A stretch of 49,190 bases of DNA. Source: an uncultured Alphaproteobacteria bacterium. GTDB taxonomy: Bacteria; Pseudomonadota; Alphaproteobacteria; Rs-D84. Under the pieces are notes generated by a model. It had not been told where the DNA came from and made no database searches. It saw only the letters and a list, made by a program, of their open reading frames with translations. Where the stretch lies: the NCBI GenBank assembly GCA_944389525.1, contig CALXMR010000006.1, positions 1 to 49,190 on the forward strand, given 5' to 3'. Every line of letters starts with the position of its first letter. The first letter of the stretch is position 1. Made by a program: the position numbers and the translations under genes. Shown one piece after another: positions 385-47,613 of the stretch.

Positions 385-3300
385 TTATAACCCTTGTAAG
401 TAAATTTTTATTTGCCTCAAATACTGCTGAAACTCACCAGTCTCCCCCCATTCGGTCTCTATCTCTTTGGGGAAAGATTGATTTATGGTTTCCTTGCTTA
501 TGTCAGGGGCATTATTCAACTTGGCAACTTTGCCTACTCCCTGCAGATTTTGTCGTCCTATTGTTTCCAAGACCAATTCTGTATCACGCAGATCGCCAAT
601 TGTATTATCCAATGCATCTGCAATCTGTTTTAATTCAGCAGAACCATAATGATTAACAACCTGTTCAAGGGTCCCCTTACGAAACCAACCGCTTTCTGCA
701 ATGCCTCCAAAAAACTCCCACTTGCCGGTTGGAACATCGGTTTTGCCAGCACTTCCAGTTGATATATAAAACGGCAGCTTTTTATTTCCGACCTTTACCA
801 TAACAATTGCGCGTCCGGAACGTTTGCCAAAATCCGACATCGTCTCGATTACAACCGGGGTTCCCCGAATAGACGTTATTGGTTTGCCAATTTGCCGTTG
901 CAGCCGCGCCATATTCTGTGAATTATCTATCGGATAAGTCAGGGAACGACCATCCCAAACATAGCGCATTTTATCGGCATCAGATTTTGACATTGTGATA
1001 ACCATGTAATCCGCACCGCTATGGCCTACTTTGTTCAGGGGGGTAGCATAATAAATTCCCTCTTTGTTTATCTCAGTTGCTAAATCAGCTGCCCGGTCTC
1101 TGCCAAATCCTGTGGGTTGGTATATGTATGCAGGCGTATTACGATATGTCACATGTTCAGAATTAAGTATTATATTATCGAAGCTGCTGAAATAAAGATC
1201 ATCATTTACGGATAGCACCTCCACGGCATCTGTTGCTGAATCTATATTATCGACGTCGCCGAAATAAGGCTCATCATTTACGGATATCACCTCTACGGCA
1301 TCTGTTGCTGAATCTATATTATCGACGTCGCCGAAATAAGGCTCGCCATTTACGGATATCACCTCCACGGCATCTGTTGCTGAATCGGCAACACGCGCCT
1401 GTTGGCGGGCAACGGCGGCGGGATGATTTGGGATGTCGTCAAAAGCCATATACTGTTTGCCGTCTTGGGTTCCTGGACGCAGCCGAACGCCATCAGATTC
1501 CAGTGCCTGGTTCAGCGCATCCCATTCTGCATCAGTCAGACGGTCTTTTGGCAGCAGTGTGCTGCGACCGGTTTCTTTGAAATCGTTTAAATATGTGTCA
1601 AAATTACTACTGGCGCGGTTGCGCAATGTTGCAATATCCGGGATATTATTCACAAGTGCGAGATTGTGTGGTGTGTTTGGTGCCCGATCTGCGACATCAT
1701 CAACTGTATTGGTGGCATGCGACGCATTTGGGGCATCGGCATTTTTAGCGTAAAACAGTACATCGCCCCCACGATTACTATTTATTGTCCAGCCTTTTTC
1801 TCGGGCGATCCTTTGGATGCTGCGCAGTTCTGAACCGGACATATTGCGGCGATGTATATAAATATTATCACTGGTGCTGTCAAATATATCAGATATATTT
1901 TGTTCCAGTCCATTGCCAGCGCGCAATTCTTCCATAGTCAATGGATTGTCAATCGTGCCATGTCGTATTGTGTTTGTTGCGGCGTGCAATGCGTCGCCCA
2001 TTGCATCGCCCCCTGATGCGCCACCACCCGGCGCACCTCCCCCTGATCTACCGCCCCCTGGTGCGCCACCAGACGGTCTTTGTGGCGATGGTATCAGATC
2101 ATATGCGTTGTTAATGCGGCGTTCCAATGCGGTTGTTGCGCGGGTCAGTTTTGATACACCCCATGAAACAACGCTTTTAATAATACTAGCTAATTGCAGT
2201 GTGATTCCGACCGCGCGCCAAACTTGTTCTGGTTCCCATGATTCCGTATCAAAAAATCCTTTTTGATTATTGGCGGTTGACGAACCGTTTTTGATAACAT
2301 CTTGATAGAATTGTGAATCTGCTGGGATTAATTCAATCAATCGTGCCAATTCTGCATCGATTCCGTTAACCGTTGCGTCTGGTAAATCGTTCGCTAAATT
2401 CGCCATACGCTGTAAATCTGACTTCAGCATAGATTCCGCGCATGTGGCATCTTGACATTGCTGGCTGGCGTTCAAAAATTCTTCCCCGGCATTGTGTATC
2501 ATTGTCGTTGTGGCAATCTCGATCCCGGCACCAACAGTTTCAACAGCCAATAAAGCCAATGCTGGTGCTGCAGTCCCGCCCGTCGCAATCGTTACGACAA
2601 CGCCTGCTGCCGCGGCACCAACCAACGAATAAACTTCTATATTATTTTCTAGTTCTGTTGCCGCAGCAGCACTGGGCAGACGACAAACCTTGCCATCCCA
2701 GAAAATTCCCTGACAGAAAGGACAACTGGCCGCATTCAAGTTACGCAACGTATTACATTTTTCTTGGGTTAAATACATGCAGGCTCTGCCGTTGTATTCA
2801 CCGCCAATAACGCGACAGTCAATGTTCTGCATACCGCCTTCGTGATATGTGTCGGAAATTTCGGACATATCATCAAACACAAAATCGATTGGTGTATCTT
2901 CATTTATTGTGCAACGCAAAACATCATCTGTTGAACCACTGACGGAATGATCTTTTATTTTACTCATTTGTCGTGGGTTGTTAACACATGAAAAACTTTG
3001 CAGACGCGTCCCCATTATGGATGATACATACTGTTGAAGACGCGTAATAACTGTTGTATTTGCCTGGATTTGTATGCCGGAATAAAATATGTATGAATCA
3101 ATTCCTGGGACCTGGGCAATTGAATTATCATCTGTTTTTTGAACCAGATCTTTTAAATAACATCCGTTTCCCCATCCACTGGTATATCCCAGTTTTTCTG
3201 CACTGCGTTTAAATGCGCCGTTACACTGGCTTTGTGATATGTTTCGGCAATATGTGCCGTCACCACTGCTGCGACCATTGTGTATTTTACACAATGCTTG

Positions 3301-5337
3301 GCGAACACTGACTTGAATATCTACGTCCCGTGATTCCCTTACATCATCGAATTGAAATTCATAGAAATACTTTCCGTCCGTGCTGACGCATTTTACATAG
3401 TCATCGTTATATGACAGCCGTGTGTTGTTGTTGCAGACAATTTTACGGTTGTGTTTGACCAATGCATATTCTTGGGCTAGTGCGACCGCTTGTAACAATT
3501 GCACATTTGTCCAATTGAATACATCATCTACACAGTATTCTGTGCCGCCACTTTTACCTTTGTCGTCACCACAAACTTCGTAATAGTGCAAGTCGCGTAA
3601 TTTTTGTTCTGCAATCTCGTCATTATTTTGTTGTATTTGGGCAAAATCATCAGAATCATAATTACAAATACATTTATTAACAGAATGTCGTATGGCCCAG
3701 TTTTTAATCTTGCAGCTCAATTTAGTTGCGACAACTTCTTTACAATATGTTTCGCATTTGTTTAATGTATTATTTTCATCGGTTAAATCATATTCCTGGC
3801 GCAGACAATATCCATCAGCATCGGCAACGATTTCTTTGCACATCCCGGATACAACCTGGTACCCTGGTTTACATTCCAATGCACTGCAACTGCATGTGCC
3901 GTCGGTGCGCTTAAATACAACGCCGCGGGTAACATTACCATATGTGCATGGATCGCCAACGCGGTTTTTATCTGTCAGACTGCGCAAACGCGGATTAATC
4001 GCCGGACATTGATCTGGGTCAATTGCCTGTACTGGTGTGGTTTCATCTTCTTCAGATAATTCAACATCATCAGAAATTATTGTTGGGGGGACTGGTGTAA
4101 TTTCTTCATCTGTTGTATCGATTGTAACAGGGGTATTATCAACGCATTCGTTATTTACCCATTCATGATACGGCTGGGATTCGCATTCGCTGATTTTGCG
4201 TTGTAATTCCGCAACTGCCTGGACACATTGCGTATACAGTGATTTTTGTTCGTCCAGATCATATGGAATATCTAAATTTGTTGCGTCTGACAATTCATCT
4301 GTTATTGGTTGCAATCCATTTATAAATTCAATGTATTCTGAAAATTTTGGGATACAATCTGGTTCAGTTATCGTTGCAACAAATGCCTGGTGTTGTGCCA
4401 ACAGATTATTATATTCGGCGATTTTTTGCTTGTTTTGATTAATTGCGTTTTGCAGCGCGTCAACTTCGTCAGAAATTTTTTGTTCCTGGGTTCGTTTTTT
4501 TGTTTCGTACTCTGTCTTGATTTCATCCGATTGTTCTTGCGGTGCATCACGATTTATCAGCAAATCGCCAACCATACCACCAACAGCACCAACGCCTGCA
4601 ATGATTGCACCAGTTTTTAGTTGTGATGATGTGTCCGAACGCGACTGCGCCCATTCAGTGGCATCGGCACCCGTTGGATCAGACAGCGCGCGCGACAGCG
4701 ATGTATATGCCCCATCTGTTTTGCCCAACGATACATTGTCGTACAGTCCCATGGTTGCGATGTCCATTATGACTTCGGATTCTATACCGGCGGGCAATTC
4801 TAGTGCATCTTTGCGTATTTTTAAATCCGCCGCCAGATCTGCAAATTCTTGGCGCAGTTGCAGTAAAGTATTTCCGTTCGGGAGTTGTATATTTGTTTCG
4901 CCACCCGCGATATTGCGGCCCGCACCATAGTCACAGCGGAATGTTGCCAGATATGCCGCCATATCGCGTTCGGCGGCATCATCGGCGCGATTTTCTGCCA
5001 CCGCAGACGCCAGTTGCATCCCCCCGATACCAGTGGCACCAATCGACAGTCCGCCCAATAATTTATTTGCGGTGGATTGTTCTTTTTCCCGCATTGCATC
5101 CGCGTTTTCTGTCAATTTTGTTTCGTATTCCGCATTCAATTTTTCCAAATCGTCAACCGATTGTTTTAACGAAGCGTACGCAGTTTTTATATCCGGTGCG
5201 ATGTTATCCGTCGTGGCGTGTTCAACAACAGAAATCATTTTTTTGGCATCATTAACATCCGCGCAATGCGCAATATGTACGGGCGTGCCCATTAATACAA
5301 ATATAAAAATAAATAAAATCCCTCTTACGCGGTTCAT
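385..5337 (-). CDS. Very large secreted cysteine-rich protein of unknown function
   Basis: About 1650 residues. I start at the ATG at 5337 because an upstream in-frame GTG (5367) lies only 2 bases past the -10 box and its codons fall in an inverted-repeat arm. Residues 1-27 form a signal peptide (basic MNRVR, hydrophobic core, likely cleavage after AHCA). Next come a coiled-coil stretch and a module of about 170 residues bracketed by two glycine-zipper-like hydrophobic segments (GGLSIGATGIGGM; GAIIAGVGAVGGMVG). This module is closely paralogous to the protein at 35463-36197. A long Cys-rich middle contains two related blocks, then a hydrophobic segment rich in Ala/Gly (YSLVGAAAAGVVVTIATGG). 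Then come a Gly/Pro linker (GGAPGGGRSGGG), three 24-residue tandem repeats and a C-terminal globular region I do not recognise. The protein is probably exported and disulfide-bonded. A role at the surface or in interactions is inference. Confidence 0.8.
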   Translation of the reverse strand: MNRVRGILFIFIFVLMGTPVHIAHCADVNDAKKMISVVEHATTDNIAPDIKTAYASLKQSVDDLEKLNAEYETKLTENADAMREKEQSTANKLLGGLSIGATGIGGMQLASAVAENRADDAAERDMAAYLATFRCDYGAGRNIAGGETNIQLPNGNTLLQLRQEFADLAADLKIRKDALELPAGIESEVIMDIATMGLYDNVSLGKTDGAYTSLSRALSDPTGADATEWAQSRSDTSSQLKTGAIIAGVGAVGGMVGDLLINRDAPQEQSDEIKTEYETKKRTQEQKISDEVDALQNAINQNKQKIAEYNNLLAQHQAFVATITEPDCIPKFSEYIEFINGLQPITDELSDATNLDIPYDLDEQKSLYTQCVQAVAELQRKISECESQPYHEWVNNECVDNTPVTIDTTDEEITPVPPTIISDDVELSEEDETTPVQAIDPDQCPAINPRLRSLTDKNRVGDPCTYGNVTRGVVFKRTDGTCSCSALECKPGYQVVSGMCKEIVADADGYCLRQEYDLTDENNTLNKCETYCKEVVATKLSCKIKNWAIRHSVNKCICNYDSDDFAQIQQNNDEIAEQKLRDLHYYEVCGDDKGKSGGTEYCVDDVFNWTNVQLLQAVALAQEYALVKHNRKIVCNNNTRLSYNDDYVKCVSTDGKYFYEFQFDDVRESRDVDIQVSVRQALCKIHNGRSSGDGTYCRNISQSQCNGAFKRSAEKLGYTSGWGNGCYLKDLVQKTDDNSIAQVPGIDSYIFYSGIQIQANTTVITRLQQYVSSIMGTRLQSFSCVNNPRQMSKIKDHSVSGSTDDVLRCTINEDTPIDFVFDDMSEISDTYHEGGMQNIDCRVIGGEYNGRACMYLTQEKCNTLRNLNAASCPFCQGIFWDGKVCRLPSAAAATELENNIEVYSLVGAAAAGVVVTIATGGTAAPALALLAVETVGAGIEIATTTMIHNAGEEFLNASQQCQDATCAESMLKSDLQRMANLANDLPDATVNGIDAELARLIELIPADSQFYQDVIKNGSSTANNQKGFFDTESWEPEQVWRAVGITLQLASIIKSVVSWGVSKLTRATTALERRINNAYDLIPSPQRPSGGAPGGGRSGGGAPGGGASGGDAMGDALHAATNTIRHGTIDNPLTMEELRAGNGLEQNISDIFDSTSDNIYIHRRNMSGSELRSIQRIAREKGWTINSNRGGDVLFYAKNADAPNASHATNTVDDVADRAPNTPHNLALVNNIPDIATLRNRASSNFDTYLNDFKETGRSTLLPKDRLTDAEWDALNQALESDGVRLRPGTQDGKQYMAFDDIPNHPAAVARQQARVADSATDAVEVISVNGEPYFGDVDNIDSATDAVEVISVNDEPYFGDVDNIDSATDAVEVLSVNDDLYFSSFDNIILNSEHVTYRNTPAYIYQPTGFGRDRAADLATEINKEGIYYATPLNKVGHSGADYMVITMSKSDADKMRYVWDGRSLTYPIDNSQNMARLQRQIGKPITSIRGTPVVIETMSDFGKRSGRAIVMVKVGNKKLPFYISTGSAGKTDVPTGKWEFFGGIAESGWFRKGTLEQVVNHYGSAELKQIADALDNTIGDLRDTELVLETIGRQNLQGVGKVAKLNNAPDISKETINQSFPKEIETEWGETGEFQQYLRQIKIYLQGL
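1180..1387 (-). repeat. Three tandem 72-bp repeats inside the giant gene
   Basis: Units at 1180-1251, 1252-1323 and 1324-1387 (last one partial) encode three near-identical 24-residue repeats around the motif DSATDAVEVISVNDEPYF. The two left-most junctions are nearly identical at the DNA level. This suggests recent expansion by slippage, in frame so the protein stays open. Confidence 0.9.
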
Positions 5338-5341
5338 GTCT

Positions 5342-5433
5342 AAAAAAGGTTGGTTTAGATTATGCACAAAGTATAGCCAATTTTCAGCGTTAATGTCCAG
5401 TGTTTTTATGCCTAATCTAAACCAACCTTTTTT
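5342..5433. repeat. 21-bp perfect inverted repeat flanking a promoter
   Basis: Left arm 5342-5362 reads aaaaaaggttggtttagatt plus a; its exact reverse complement is at 5413-5433. The 50-bp spacer holds the promoter of the giant secreted-protein gene. Each arm ends outward in an A/T run, so the structure could act as a bidirectional terminator for read-through RNA. Repeats around a promoter are also the layout of invertible promoters. Confidence 0.85.
5370..5399 (-). promoter_or_regulatory. Sigma-70 promoter of the giant secreted-protein gene
   Basis: On the minus strand TGGACA (5399-5394), an 18-base spacer, then TATACT (5375-5370). Transcription should begin near 5363, just at the proximal arm of the inverted repeat, giving a leader of about 26-28 bases. 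No clear Shine-Dalgarno sequence precedes the ATG at 5337. Confidence 0.6.
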
Positions 5434-5577
5434 TTCGGCAGTGTAAATATTTCTTTACTTTTTGATTTTTTCAGTAAATAATAACTGGCAACTGGTCGAA
5501 CATACTAAAATACAGGGTTATTTATGCGAAATATTAAAGTGGTTTTAATTTGATACGGTGCGACCATCAGGGATTGA

Positions 5578-5607
5578 CGGACGCACTATCAGGGCGTCCG
5601 TTTTTTT
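5578..5607 (+). terminator. Terminator or attenuator upstream of lysS
   Basis: Stem cggacgc (5578-5584) and gcgtccg (5594-5600) with a 9-base loop, followed by seven T. It ends 27 bases before the lysS start. It could insulate lysS from plus-strand transcripts arising at the inverted-repeat promoter region, or attenuate lysS itself. I see no convincing lysS promoter between this hairpin and the start codon. Confidence 0.65.
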
Positions 5608-27740: not shown

Positions 27741-28661
27741 ATGAATGAACTGGTCGCCGAATTCATAGAATATTTAACACAGACGAAAAATTATTCTGTG
27801 CACACGGCGACCGCGTATGAAACAGATATTCGTGATTTTATAAACTTTTACGAAAACTATATTGGCGCGGTTGTCGGATTGGGCGAAATTGCACGCGCCG
27901 ATGCGATTTGTTTCCGTGCATGGATGGCGGATCGCGGGCGGCGCGGGTTGGTGCATAAATCAACAGCGCGGGCGTTATCGTCTGTGCGCGGGTTTTATAA
28001 ATATTTGGCCAGGCATCATAATATACAAAACAGTGCAATTGGCCTGATTTCATCACCGCGTGTTCCGCGTAAATTATCCAAGGCCATTGATATCGGCGAT
28101 GTTCATGATATGCACAACGCAATTCGTGATATTGATGAACGCGCGCCGTGGATTGCTGCGCGTGATTGGGCGTTGGTTATGCTGATATTTGGTTGTGGCC
28201 TGCGTATATCCGAAGCGTTATCATTAAAAAACATTGATGTTCGTGGGCGACCAGATGCGTTGCGCATATTGGGCAAGGGGTCCAAAGAACGAATTGTTCC
28301 GATACTGCCGCCTGTTTTGGATGCGATTGAAAAATATACGCGCCTGCGACCATTTGGCACGGCACCAGATGATCCACTGTTTCGCAGTGTTCGCGGTCTG
28401 CCCATGACGGCGCGCATGGCAGAAAAAGTCATTGAAAAACTGCGCCATTATTTACAGTTGCCCGATTATGTAACCCCGCACGCATTGCGCCATACATTTG
28501 CAACCGCGATGTTGGGCGGTGGCGCAGATTTGCGCAGTTTGCAAGAATTACTGGGGCATTCGTCCCTGTCCACGACACAGTTGTATACGCGGGTAAATAT
28601 GTCCGAAATCCAGAACATATACGAACACGCGCATCCCCGCGCGCGCACAGATGATAACTAG
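27741..28661 (+). CDS. xerC: Tyrosine recombinase XerC/D type
   Basis: Resolves chromosome dimers at dif with a partner Xer. 306 residues: N-terminal SAM-like core-binding domain (about 1-90) and a catalytic domain. The catalytic residues are all visible: R in GLRISEAL (about 155), K in GKGSKER (about 179), H-x-x-R in HALRHTFA (about 246-249), H in LLGHSSLSTT, and the Tyr nucleophile in TQLYTRV (about 280). Context and length fit a housekeeping Xer rather than an integrase. XerC versus XerD cannot be decided by eye. Confidence 0.9.
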   Translation: MNELVAEFIEYLTQTKNYSVHTATAYETDIRDFINFYENYIGAVVGLGEIARADAICFRAWMADRGRRGLVHKSTARALSSVRGFYKYLARHHNIQNSAIGLISSPRVPRKLSKAIDIGDVHDMHNAIRDIDERAPWIAARDWALVMLIFGCGLRISEALSLKNIDVRGRPDALRILGKGSKERIVPILPPVLDAIEKYTRLRPFGTAPDDPLFRSVRGLPMTARMAEKVIEKLRHYLQLPDYVTPHALRHTFATAMLGGGADLRSLQELLGHSSLSTTQLYTRVNMSEIQNIYEHAHPRARTDDN

Positions 28662-43589: not shown

Positions 43590-43637
43590 ATCAACCTCAC
43601 TTTATATGATTATAAAAAGCGAAGTAATAAAATGCAA

Positions 43638-45266
43638 TTATAAATGGGCGGCAAATAACTTTTTCTGCTCGGCAAAGTCATTGCTGCGTGATGCCTTGTC
43701 CAACATATCACGAACAGATATTTGACATTGGTTACTCAATATATGATTTACGACTTCTGGGTTCAGATATACCAGCGACAGATGTTTATAAACATGGCGC
43801 AGGGCGATATGTTCGTTCCTCGCGATTGTATCCACATCGCCACATTTTTCATACATTTCACGATATCGCCACGCAGTTGCAAACGCCTTGACGATAAGGT
43901 TATTGTTTTCTGTAATTGTAAGCAGGCTTGTTTTTGCCTTGCTAAATTTGGTGTTCGCATACCTGCGAAAAACTACTGGAACGGTTATTGTAACACTGTA
44001 TTCGTTTGTAATAAATTCCATTGGTAAACTTGACTGATTTACATAAACATCTGTAATAAATGGTCGCACAGAATTTGGCGATATATCTAAATAGATAATC
44101 AGTTGCTTGTTTGAGAAAATAGCCTTATCAACTATTGCTTGTATAAAGTCGCGCTTTTGTACGCCCGATAGAGCCGCCCAATTTACTGACTTTAATGCAC
44201 TTGCTGAATCTGGGGGCAAATAGGATAGGTCGGCATTTAGAAACTCTGAAAGAGTATTTGACACAACTTCGTCAACTGGGGCCGCTGGTATAAAAAGTCC
44301 CTTTTGTGCATAGTAATGTATTTTAGTATGATTTTTGTTGGTTTTAACTTGGTTGATAAAACGTTCGCCTTGACTGTTAAACAGTTTGCCTGACAACAAG
44401 TTCGGTGAACGGTGTGATTCTGTTTTGTTATTAGAATTGTTTTTTAGCGCCTGTTGAACTTCGTTAAAAAGTTCTTTTGAAATAATTGCGTCTTGTTCGC
44501 CCTTGGCAAAGGTATTTGCTTTTTTGTGTGCAATTTGACCAATATAAGTCATATCACGCAACAGGCGGTGCATTCCCATCAGTGATATTTTATTGCCACC
44601 TTTTTGATTGCCTTTTTTGGAAATCCATTTCTTGGAATATATACCCTGTGCTTCAGCATATTGAACCAAGCGTTTTACAGACTGCAACTCTAAATACTTT
44701 TCAAACAGTTGTTTTACTTGCTGGGCTTCTGCCTCGTTTACAACCAACTTTTTGTCTTTTATATCGTATCCTAATGGTGGATTACCACCCATCCATAAAC
44801 CTTTGGCTTTACTGGCACGTATTTTATCACGCACACGTTCACTGGCAACTTCACGTTCAAACTGTGCAAATGACAGCAACATATTCAATGTCAGCTTGCC
44901 CATAGAAGTACTGGTATCAAACGCCTGAGTAATGGATACAAAGTTGCAACCGTATTTATCAAAGTACTTCATCATATTGTGAAAATCCAAGATAGAACGG
45001 GATAATCGGTCAACCTTGTACACAACAACCGTGTTTATCAACCCTTTGGAAATATCGTCTAACATTTGCTTTAATGCGGGTCGTTCCATGGTTCCGCCAG
45101 AAATCGCCGCATCAGTATAAGTGCGAACGTATTCCCAATTATTAAATGCCTGGGACGCAATGTAGGCCTTGCAAGATTCATCCTGGTTTAACAGGGAATT
45201 AAACTCTTGTTCCAATCCATGTTCAGTTGACTTGCGGACATAAACAGCGCATTTAATCACCGGCAT
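43638..45266 (-). CDS. Large serine recombinase
   Basis: 542 residues. The resolvase catalytic domain contains YVRKSTEHGLEQEFNSL (nucleophile Ser13), DAAISGGTMERPALKQMLDD, YKVDRLSRS and FAQFEREVASERVRDK. The recombinase DNA-binding domain follows at about 175-280. The zinc-ribbon part lacks its usual Cys residues (SPNLLSGKLFNSQGERFINQ), as in a known subgroup in alphaproteobacterial elements. It would integrate or excise the island or a prophage-like element. It forms an overlapping cluster with the DUF2924, DUF5681 and 64-residue genes. Confidence 0.95.
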   Translation of the reverse strand: MPVIKCAVYVRKSTEHGLEQEFNSLLNQDESCKAYIASQAFNNWEYVRTYTDAAISGGTMERPALKQMLDDISKGLINTVVVYKVDRLSRSILDFHNMMKYFDKYGCNFVSITQAFDTSTSMGKLTLNMLLSFAQFEREVASERVRDKIRASKAKGLWMGGNPPLGYDIKDKKLVVNEAEAQQVKQLFEKYLELQSVKRLVQYAEAQGIYSKKWISKKGNQKGGNKISLMGMHRLLRDMTYIGQIAHKKANTFAKGEQDAIISKELFNEVQQALKNNSNNKTESHRSPNLLSGKLFNSQGERFINQVKTNKNHTKIHYYAQKGLFIPAAPVDEVVSNTLSEFLNADLSYLPPDSASALKSVNWAALSGVQKRDFIQAIVDKAIFSNKQLIIYLDISPNSVRPFITDVYVNQSSLPMEFITNEYSVTITVPVVFRRYANTKFSKAKTSLLTITENNNLIVKAFATAWRYREMYEKCGDVDTIARNEHIALRHVYKHLSLVYLNPEVVNHILSNQCQISVRDMLDKASRSNDFAEQKKLFAAHL

Positions 45267-46452: not shown

Positions 46453-47613
46453 ATGTCTGATAATAAAGTAAAAATCGGCGATTATGTAAAGCAACCTGGC
46501 GGTTTTAATGCGTTTATTCCGTGTGCTTTTCCACCGAAGCCAGAGATAGAAATTTCGCAAAAAATAATGGCGCTACAGTCAAATGCTCTGTTGTTGTTGG
46601 GTAAACTAAACGGTATTACTAAACTATTACCAGATAAAGACTGTTTTTTAAAAATGTTTATTCGTAAGGATGCATCGTCTTCCAGTCAAATAGAAGGAAC
46701 GAATGCCACAATTATGGATGCCATAGAAAAAGAAAATATAGAACCTGGGTCATATCTGCCACCCGATGTTGATGATATATTACACTATATTCAGGCATTA
46801 AATTATGGAATGGAAAGAAGCAAAACTTTTCCAATATCGTTGAGATTTGTTCGTGAACTACATAAAGAATTGATGATAGGTGCTCGTAAAACACAGTTTG
46901 CCTATCCAGGAGAATTCAGAATAACACAAAACTGGATTGGCGGCACTAAGCCAGATAATGCACGTTTTGTTCCGCCTCCACCTGAAAATATGAAAAAGGC
47001 TTTATATGATCTGGAAAACTTTATGTGTAAAGATAATTCTTATTTACCGTTAATAAAGGCAGGATTATTACATGCACAATTTGAAACGATTCATCCATTT
47101 AACGATGGAAATGGCAGAACAGGTCGAATGCTGATAACAATGTTTTTGTTAGCAAATGGTTTGATAGAGGTTCCTGTTTTGTACTTGTCGTCATTTTTCA
47201 AAAAGCATCAAAAGGTTTATTATGAAAAATTGAATGGCTATCATAATGGTGAAATATCAGATTGGTTAGAGTTTTTTTTAGATGGTATAATAGAAACAGC
47301 ACAATCAGCAATAGATACATGTGATGGTATAATAAGATTGCGAGAATACAATAGTAAACAGATTCAAAAGTTAAATAGAACGGCGTCTGAATCAACAATG
47401 AAAGTAATAGAAAACCTGTATAAAATACCAATTGTTGGTATTGCAGATGTTTTGAAGTGGTCAGAGTTGTCGAAGCCAAATGCATATAAATTGATAAAAC
47501 GATTGGAAGCTATAGGGGTTTTATATCCTGTAAAACAGGGCGATAATGTATACGGGCAAAAATGGGGTTATCGTGATTATCTGCGTTTGTTTGAAACTGT
47601 TGCAGAAAATTAA
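46453..47613 (+). CDS. Fic family protein (AMPylase type) with inhibitory motif and winged-helix tail
   Basis: 386 residues. An N-terminal Fic/DOC_N domain carries the self-inhibitory motif SSSQIEGTN (about 76-84, with Glu poised to block ATP). The catalytic loop HPFNDGNGRTGR (about 215-226) is intact. The C-terminus (about 315-380, IPIVGIADVLKWSELSKPNAY) looks like a winged helix. Members transfer AMP from ATP to target proteins. AAGAGG precedes the ATG. It is followed directly by a restriction-methylase remnant. Confidence 0.93.
   Translation: MSDNKVKIGDYVKQPGGFNAFIPCAFPPKPEIEISQKIMALQSNALLLLGKLNGITKLLPDKDCFLKMFIRKDASSSSQIEGTNATIMDAIEKENIEPGSYLPPDVDDILHYIQALNYGMERSKTFPISLRFVRELHKELMIGARKTQFAYPGEFRITQNWIGGTKPDNARFVPPPPENMKKALYDLENFMCKDNSYLPLIKAGLLHAQFETIHPFNDGNGRTGRMLITMFLLANGLIEVPVLYLSSFFKKHQKVYYEKLNGYHNGEISDWLEFFLDGIIETAQSAIDTCDGIIRLREYNSKQIQKLNRTASESTMKVIENLYKIPIVGIADVLKWSELSKPNAYKLIKRLEAIGVLYPVKQGDNVYGQKWGYRDYLRLFETVAEN

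Follow-up and report, generated by a model that had tools for sequence, protein, structure and literature searches.

A candidate invertible promoter upstream of a giant secreted-protein gene and a dispersed family of short inverted box pairs in Candidatus Enterousia

Whether the inverted repeat between the divergent starts of a giant secreted-protein gene (minus strand) and lysS (plus strand, 5635) is a phase-variable promoter switch was examined in a window of 49,190 nucleotides (i.e. the whole stretch of DNA analysed, from an uncultured alphaproteobacterium). The original prediction described a perfect 21-bp inverted repeat around 50 bp, and this structure was confirmed, with arms at 5342-5362 and 5413-5433. 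When two mismatches are allowed, the arms extend inward to 29 nt each with 93% identity. Zero shuffles of the window contained a match to a 20-mer of the arm at three or fewer mismatches, and both strands of the repeat folded much better than shuffles (z -6.7), placing the repeat well beyond chance. A search of the own genome with the 20-mer found the two arms and one chance match inside a gene. An Rfam scan returned miRNA hairpin matches only, all far under the gathering scores. The features of the locus are as follows.

385..5337, minus strand: controlled gene for a 1650-aa protein with a signal-peptide-like start, MNRVRGILFIFIFVLMGTPVHIAHCADV, from a genus-wide family of large proteins
5334..5367, minus strand: gene-proximal recombination box (site 2), with outer arm 5334-5347, core 5348-5353 and inner arm 5354-5367
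5351..5424, no strand: proposed invertible segment, 74 bp from box centre to box centre (~7 helical turns)
5370..5399, minus strand: sigma-70-type promoter TGGACA-N18-TATACT inside the segment, directed toward the giant gene, from a scan and its likeness to sister spacers
5408..5441, minus strand: distal recombination box (site 1), with inner arm 5408-5421, core 5422-5427 and outer arm 5428-5441
5454..5482, plus strand: probable lysS promoter TTTACT-N17-AATAAT, outside the segment, from a scan
5524..5607, plus strand: lysS leader, a short ORF (MRNIKVVLI) and a terminator hairpin (GGACGC...GCGTCC) with a T run

The giant gene likely starts at the ATG at 5337, its frame being open upstream to a GTG at 5367 within the repeat. 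Of 96 genus genomes, 94 gave matches to its protein family, frequently more than one each, and a Pfam search of the giant protein gave no family above the cut-off. The near-consensus sigma-70 promoter predicted to face this gene is present (10/12, minus strand, 5399-5370). Taken alone, the consensus match is weak evidence, the scan having found nine sites scoring at least 9/12 as compared to 5.1 +/- 2.0 expected. The promoter gains weight because the window spacer aligns, in the gene-facing sense, with the promoter segment of two sister elements of the own genome (z 4.8 and 5.3, with 0/300 shuffles as good) and because a promoter stands at the same place in two relatives. These relatives, G007 (a genome only 64% complete) and G105, carry an orthologue of the giant gene that is 42-46% identical and also adjoins a lysS leader; no box was found there, and their fixed-place promoters read TTGACT-N18-TATCAT and TTGACT-N17-TAATCT, respectively. 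As the alignment with the sister promoter is gene-facing, the window element is probably ON as assembled.

The first clue to the wider distribution of the repeat came from a search of related genomes with intergenic DNA, which yielded short repeated arm matches in G012 and G020 of the same genus. The arms of the window proved to be diverged copies of a palindromic 34-bp box (i.e. a 14-bp arm, a 6-bp core and a 14-bp arm, roughly ATGCCKAATCYAAA-CCACCC-TTTRGATTMGGCAT), which occurs as inverted pairs ahead of genes for secreted proteins, both in the own genome and in others of the genus. This genus is Candidatus Enterousia, the invertase locus of G018 being identical to a record of Ca. Enterousia excrementavium. 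An exact paired-box pattern detected the family in just 3 genomes of the genus and a covariance model was needed; it was built from 21 sequences, the window box among them. At E<=0.01, 43 of the 116 genus genomes contained boxes, and 34 of the 116 (~30%) had at least three hits, counts in which palindromes are scored on both strands and some single hits may be due to chance. The own genome contains 12 hits, including the window box. Across the order as sampled, almost every hit fell within the genus, the remainder being 17 in one same-family genome of another genus and 2 marginal hits in one more distant genome. A 20-mer of the box had no match among viral contigs. Several own-genome boxes lie at or near contig ends (G000 C13:1-32, C3:136019-136056, C8:21877-21908 and C1:405-442), the pattern that assembly breaks at repeated or mixed-orientation elements would produce. 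In G020, many elements (L049-L055 and L077) have REP-like repeats of the CCACCCCGCCACTTCGTGGC / GGAGGTGGTCTTTTTT type upstream.

The 21-bp arms of the window correspond to the inner half and core of this genus-wide box. Site 1, with the core GGTTGG on the minus strand, was matched by the covariance model at 5406-5443 (43.3 bits, E 2.2e-8 in the own genome). Its outer arm is partly decayed, scoring 10/14 where 14 is usual, and keeps TGCCGAA..AAA. The inner arm of site 2 scores 12/14; its outer arm scores 4/14, is unconserved and overlaps the start of the giant gene. Poor proximal outer arms are frequent in the box family, with scores of 4-7/14 in many elements.

Evidence for inversion was sought in the orientation of spacers at sister loci, with gene directions set by hand from the starts of the secreted genes. 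The two sister elements of the own genome are located as follows.

L248, contig C3: boxes 135925-135962 and 136019-136056, promoter spacer facing the gene
L249, contig C2: box 46651-46688 and a partner 94 bp away, promoter spacer facing away

The spacers of L248 and L249 are 97% identical, contain TTGACA and lie in opposite orientations. Both have a weak -10 hexamer, TAAAAA or CAAAAA. An unequal inner arm, TTTAAAACCAGC, moves with the spacer while the outer arms remain with the locus, an arrangement that locates the crossover to the core. Reversed spacers were also observed in G020, where L053 and L055 share similar promoter flanks, boxes and gene side with L054, and in G127, where L254 and L257 have identical upstream flanks. 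Opposite states were seen between loci and between species only.

The central dinucleotide of the core is identical, in inverted orientation, in 57 of 59 box pairs from seven genomes, a proportion that is partly built in as the collection was filtered for a matching centre except at two loci. In the unfiltered pair list, strong-armed pairs match at the centre almost always and the outer core positions often differ. Identity per core position, from outside inward, was 41, 38, 58, 58, 56 and 55 of 59. In the window, the centre is TT/TT when one box is compared with the reverse complement of the other. Serine recombinases, which cut with a 2-bp overlap, need just such a matching 2-bp centre, and this centre favours them over tyrosine recombinases. 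The elements resemble the hix and gix sites of Hin and Gin in being palindromic with a 2-bp centre, and differ from these systems in the many site pairs per genome and the short segments; the box core itself may also resemble hix/gix. Distances between box centres are 74 bp in the window, the shortest of the set, 83-86 bp in most elements (mainly 85), 94 bp in two and 109 bp in one. These spacings fall near 7, 8 and 9 helical turns, with 109 bp off phase; helical phasing is suggestive only, because most elements are copies of few families.

Serine recombinases are abundant in the genus. In a tree of 54 small serine recombinases from 39 genomes, the product of G000 C3:88075-88665 falls in a clade of 17 members (support 99/98). 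This protein passes the NCBIfam model for the master DNA invertase Mpi (NF009949) with 310.1 bits against a cut-off of 272, and its closest solved relatives are Gin proteins. The own genome encodes a second Mpi-family member over the cut-off (C2:159128-159718). The original prediction suggested a search for a linked tyrosine or serine invertase; the genome does contain a matching serine invertase family, but neither member is linked to the window locus. Examination of inverted repeats beside the invertase genes of the own genome revealed no linked box pair of this type. Across the 39 genomes, the clade and the boxes co-occur (14/17 as compared to 2/22, p 6e-6, relatedness ignored). A member over the cut-off is present in 49 of 116 genus genomes, and at least three box hits were found in 32 of these 49 as against 2 of the 67 without one (p 6e-14, relatedness ignored). 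The exceptions are G023 and G042, with boxes and no invertase over the cut-off, and 17 genomes with an invertase over the cut-off and fewer than three box hits. The C3:88075 invertase is proposed to act on these boxes, and a shared Mpi-type recombinase probably works the many small switches. Proteins similar to this invertase occur in Bacteroidales and other gut bacteria. Tyrosine recombinases had been the first candidate, and a fim-type switch would call for a dedicated one beyond XerC/XerD; the shared 2-bp centre shifted the weight to serine recombinases. Three PF00589 proteins are encoded in the own genome, including an integrase-like protein of 411 aa; extra PF00589 proteins vary in length and number among genomes and, by eye, do not track the boxes. 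The window encodes a large serine recombinase (542-aa frame) and an Xer-like tyrosine recombinase (309 aa), with coordinates 44796-45248 (minus strand) and 28152-28604 (plus strand).

The locus thus has inverted recombination sites around a promoter and a central crossover sequence common to both sites in inverted orientation, and we consider with good confidence that it is a promoter-type inverton. The predicted phase-variable promoter gains its support from the sister elements, the genus-wide box and the matching invertase family. Two inverted boxes would flank a 74-bp segment holding one promoter, and an unlinked Mpi-family serine invertase would pair the boxes, cut at the central dinucleotide and flip the segment. 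The ON and OFF states of expression are predicted from the layout: as assembled, the promoter would be directed toward the giant secreted gene (ON); after flipping, it would be directed toward lysS and run into the leader terminator, leaving the giant gene without a promoter (OFF). As such invertons occur across the genome and genus, most before signal-peptide genes, cells of one population could differ in their sets of secreted proteins.

The alternative with the greatest claim to attention is that the locus is a relic, a former inverton with decayed boxes whose promoter is now fixed in the ON state. The low-scoring outer arms (10/14 distal and 4/14 proximal) and the shortest spacing of the set are as a relic would have them, and a promoter in a fixed place suffices for the orthologues in G007 and G105. 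Neutral decay would, however, be expected to break the inner halves and cores, which still form a perfect 21-bp repeat with the same core, and unconserved proximal outer arms are common across the family, so that a relic is possible but rather unlikely. Since the distal box is more decayed than most, our confidence that the window locus still flips is lower than that in its identity as an inverton, and we judge continued flipping only somewhat the likelier state. A switch of the start-codon type, in which a flip would put in-frame ATGs (MSSVF-MPNLN) before a giant gene that now has only the GTG at 5367 and the ATG at 5337, draws on the shared reading frame of box and gene, a feature of the start-codon class described below. 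It is very improbable, as neither flipped-state ATG is preceded by a Shine-Dalgarno sequence, no start lies at -50 and the window spacer resembles promoter spacers.

Dispersed palindromes lying partly within reading frames in an alphaproteobacterium could also represent a palindromic mobile repeat (MITE-like or Rickettsia palindromic element-like) that landed near genes and does not flip in place. Such an origin would not account for fixed-spacing pairs with a common central dinucleotide, for spacers reversed between matching flanks with the outer arms left behind, or for a promoter, terminator or start codon positioned for the neighbouring gene, and it too is given very little weight. The original prediction had also offered a bidirectional terminator or an operator for a dimeric regulator, consistent with the A and T runs that end the arms and the strong predicted hairpin. 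These fit worse, and of all the readings they are the least credible: the site lies between two divergent gene starts with nothing to end there, the loop is tens of bases long, the terminator scan made no call here, and the dispersed family of inverted pairs, with shared centres and reversed spacers, would be left unexplained by either. The compact GC-rich stem, short loop and T run after a gene end of an intrinsic terminator are lacking at this site.

Comparison of spacers across the box pairs distinguished three types of cargo on one box type.

P class: a promoter in the spacer and a gene with its own start (the window, L248, L249, L063, twelve G048 elements and L205 of G097)
T class: an intrinsic terminator, a CCCGG hairpin with a T run, and a TATAAT-type promoter outside box 1 (G020 and G127)
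S class: a ribosome-binding site with an in-frame start codon that precedes the centre of the gene-side box by exactly 50 bp

All twelve P elements of G048 (i.e. the first pair of L224, L229, L230, L232-L237 and L241-L243) face away from the gene (OFF). At L205 (G097:C2:77050-78150), two secreted genes diverge from a box pair with a spacing of 109 bp. Each gene has a ribosome-binding site of its own, 36 bp away from a box centre, so that a single promoter could serve either gene. The T-class hairpin is directed toward the gene in L054, L056 and L254 and away from it in L053, L257 and L258. For the S class, an ATG or GTG with a Shine-Dalgarno-like sequence occurs in one orientation at -50 in 19 elements, with one each at four other positions; the 19 are not independent, many being mutual copies, and the spacers of G012, G020, G041, G048 and G097 differ. 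The predicted peptides begin with sequences such as MQKSG or MRKTG, continue with box-encoded residues such as MPNLN and then enter a signal peptide. L057, L199 and the second L224 pair are ON in the assembly, and L070, L202, L207, L210, L219, L225, L231, L239 and L240 are examples of OFF elements. The -50 start may be incidental in L200 and L201. An S-type element was also observed before a glycosyltransferase-like gene rather than a secreted-protein gene (L077, G020:C6, pair ~43621-43740). If true, the S class would represent phase variation of translation initiation via DNA inversion, and it would offer a directly testable route of translation switching. In the intragenic invertons attributed to Chanin et al. 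in 2024 (cited in PMC11892184), inversion reportedly alters coding sequence. S-class inversion would likewise alter coding sequence, but the module that it flips consists of a ribosome-binding site, a start codon and the first codons, placed at a fixed offset. Overall, it appears likely that the switches of these reduced-genome gut Alphaproteobacteria form a modular network of 74-109-bp segments that relies on one box type and one invertase family, with interchangeable cargo (i.e. a promoter, a terminator, or a ribosome-binding site and start codon with the first codons).

The closest parallel is Bacteroides fragilis, in which the unlinked Mpi invertase is accompanied by 13 invertible promoter regions (PMC4747536). 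As with Mpi (Coyne et al. 2003), whose NCBIfam family it shares, the proposed enzyme is a small serine invertase, and many dispersed invertible promoters for surface functions would be served by one unlinked enzyme, an arrangement that is proposed here. In contrast to B. fragilis, the host is a reduced-genome alphaproteobacterium, the segments measure 74-109 bp from centre to centre, the targets are mostly single secreted-protein genes, and terminator and start-codon cargo occur on the same boxes. In cwpV of Clostridioides difficile, the invertible segment forms an intrinsic terminator when OFF and the promoter lies outside (PMC2784873). The T elements of G020 and G127 resemble cwpV in their outside promoter and flipping intrinsic terminator; cwpV differs in having 195 bp between the repeats and RecV as recombinase (PMC2784873), and the window element carries a promoter. 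The host group, the very short segments and the combination of different cargoes on a single box type are new here, as the modular start-codon cargo may also be. No report of inversion in Enterousia was found, the paper examined for it being PMC12306168, which is silent on the subject. The findings would extend Mpi-type global phase variation from Bacteroides to uncultured gut Alphaproteobacteria with genomes of ~1 Mb and suggest that secreted proteins make up the variable exterior of these organisms. Segments this short, near whole helical turns, would offer a test of the minimal site distance for synapsis by serine invertases.

At this locus, G012 has a different, small secreted gene with a box pair, the promoter of which (TTGACT-N18-TATATT) points away. 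This element may be locked, because its central dinucleotides differ (AT and GT). On the opposite side, an TTTACTTTT element recurs upstream of lysS in relatives. The original prediction held that a terminator at 5578-5607 would block the flipped promoter; this hairpin would be in the path but belongs to a conserved, attenuator-like lysS leader. The layout of the leader (GTGCG.../GGACGC-GCGTCC-T7) recurs before lysS across the genus, and the leader peptides of relatives often contain Lys codons (e.g. MKLNIKKSL and MKQNCKKSLL), so that the leader looks like a lysine attenuator; no Rfam family matches it. The same leader type was observed at L061 (G013:C2:23850-24400) before a gene whose protein start resembles that of class I lysyl-tRNA synthetases; G013 lacks any full-length match to the class II lysS, and there the leader appears to have persisted through a replacement of the enzyme.
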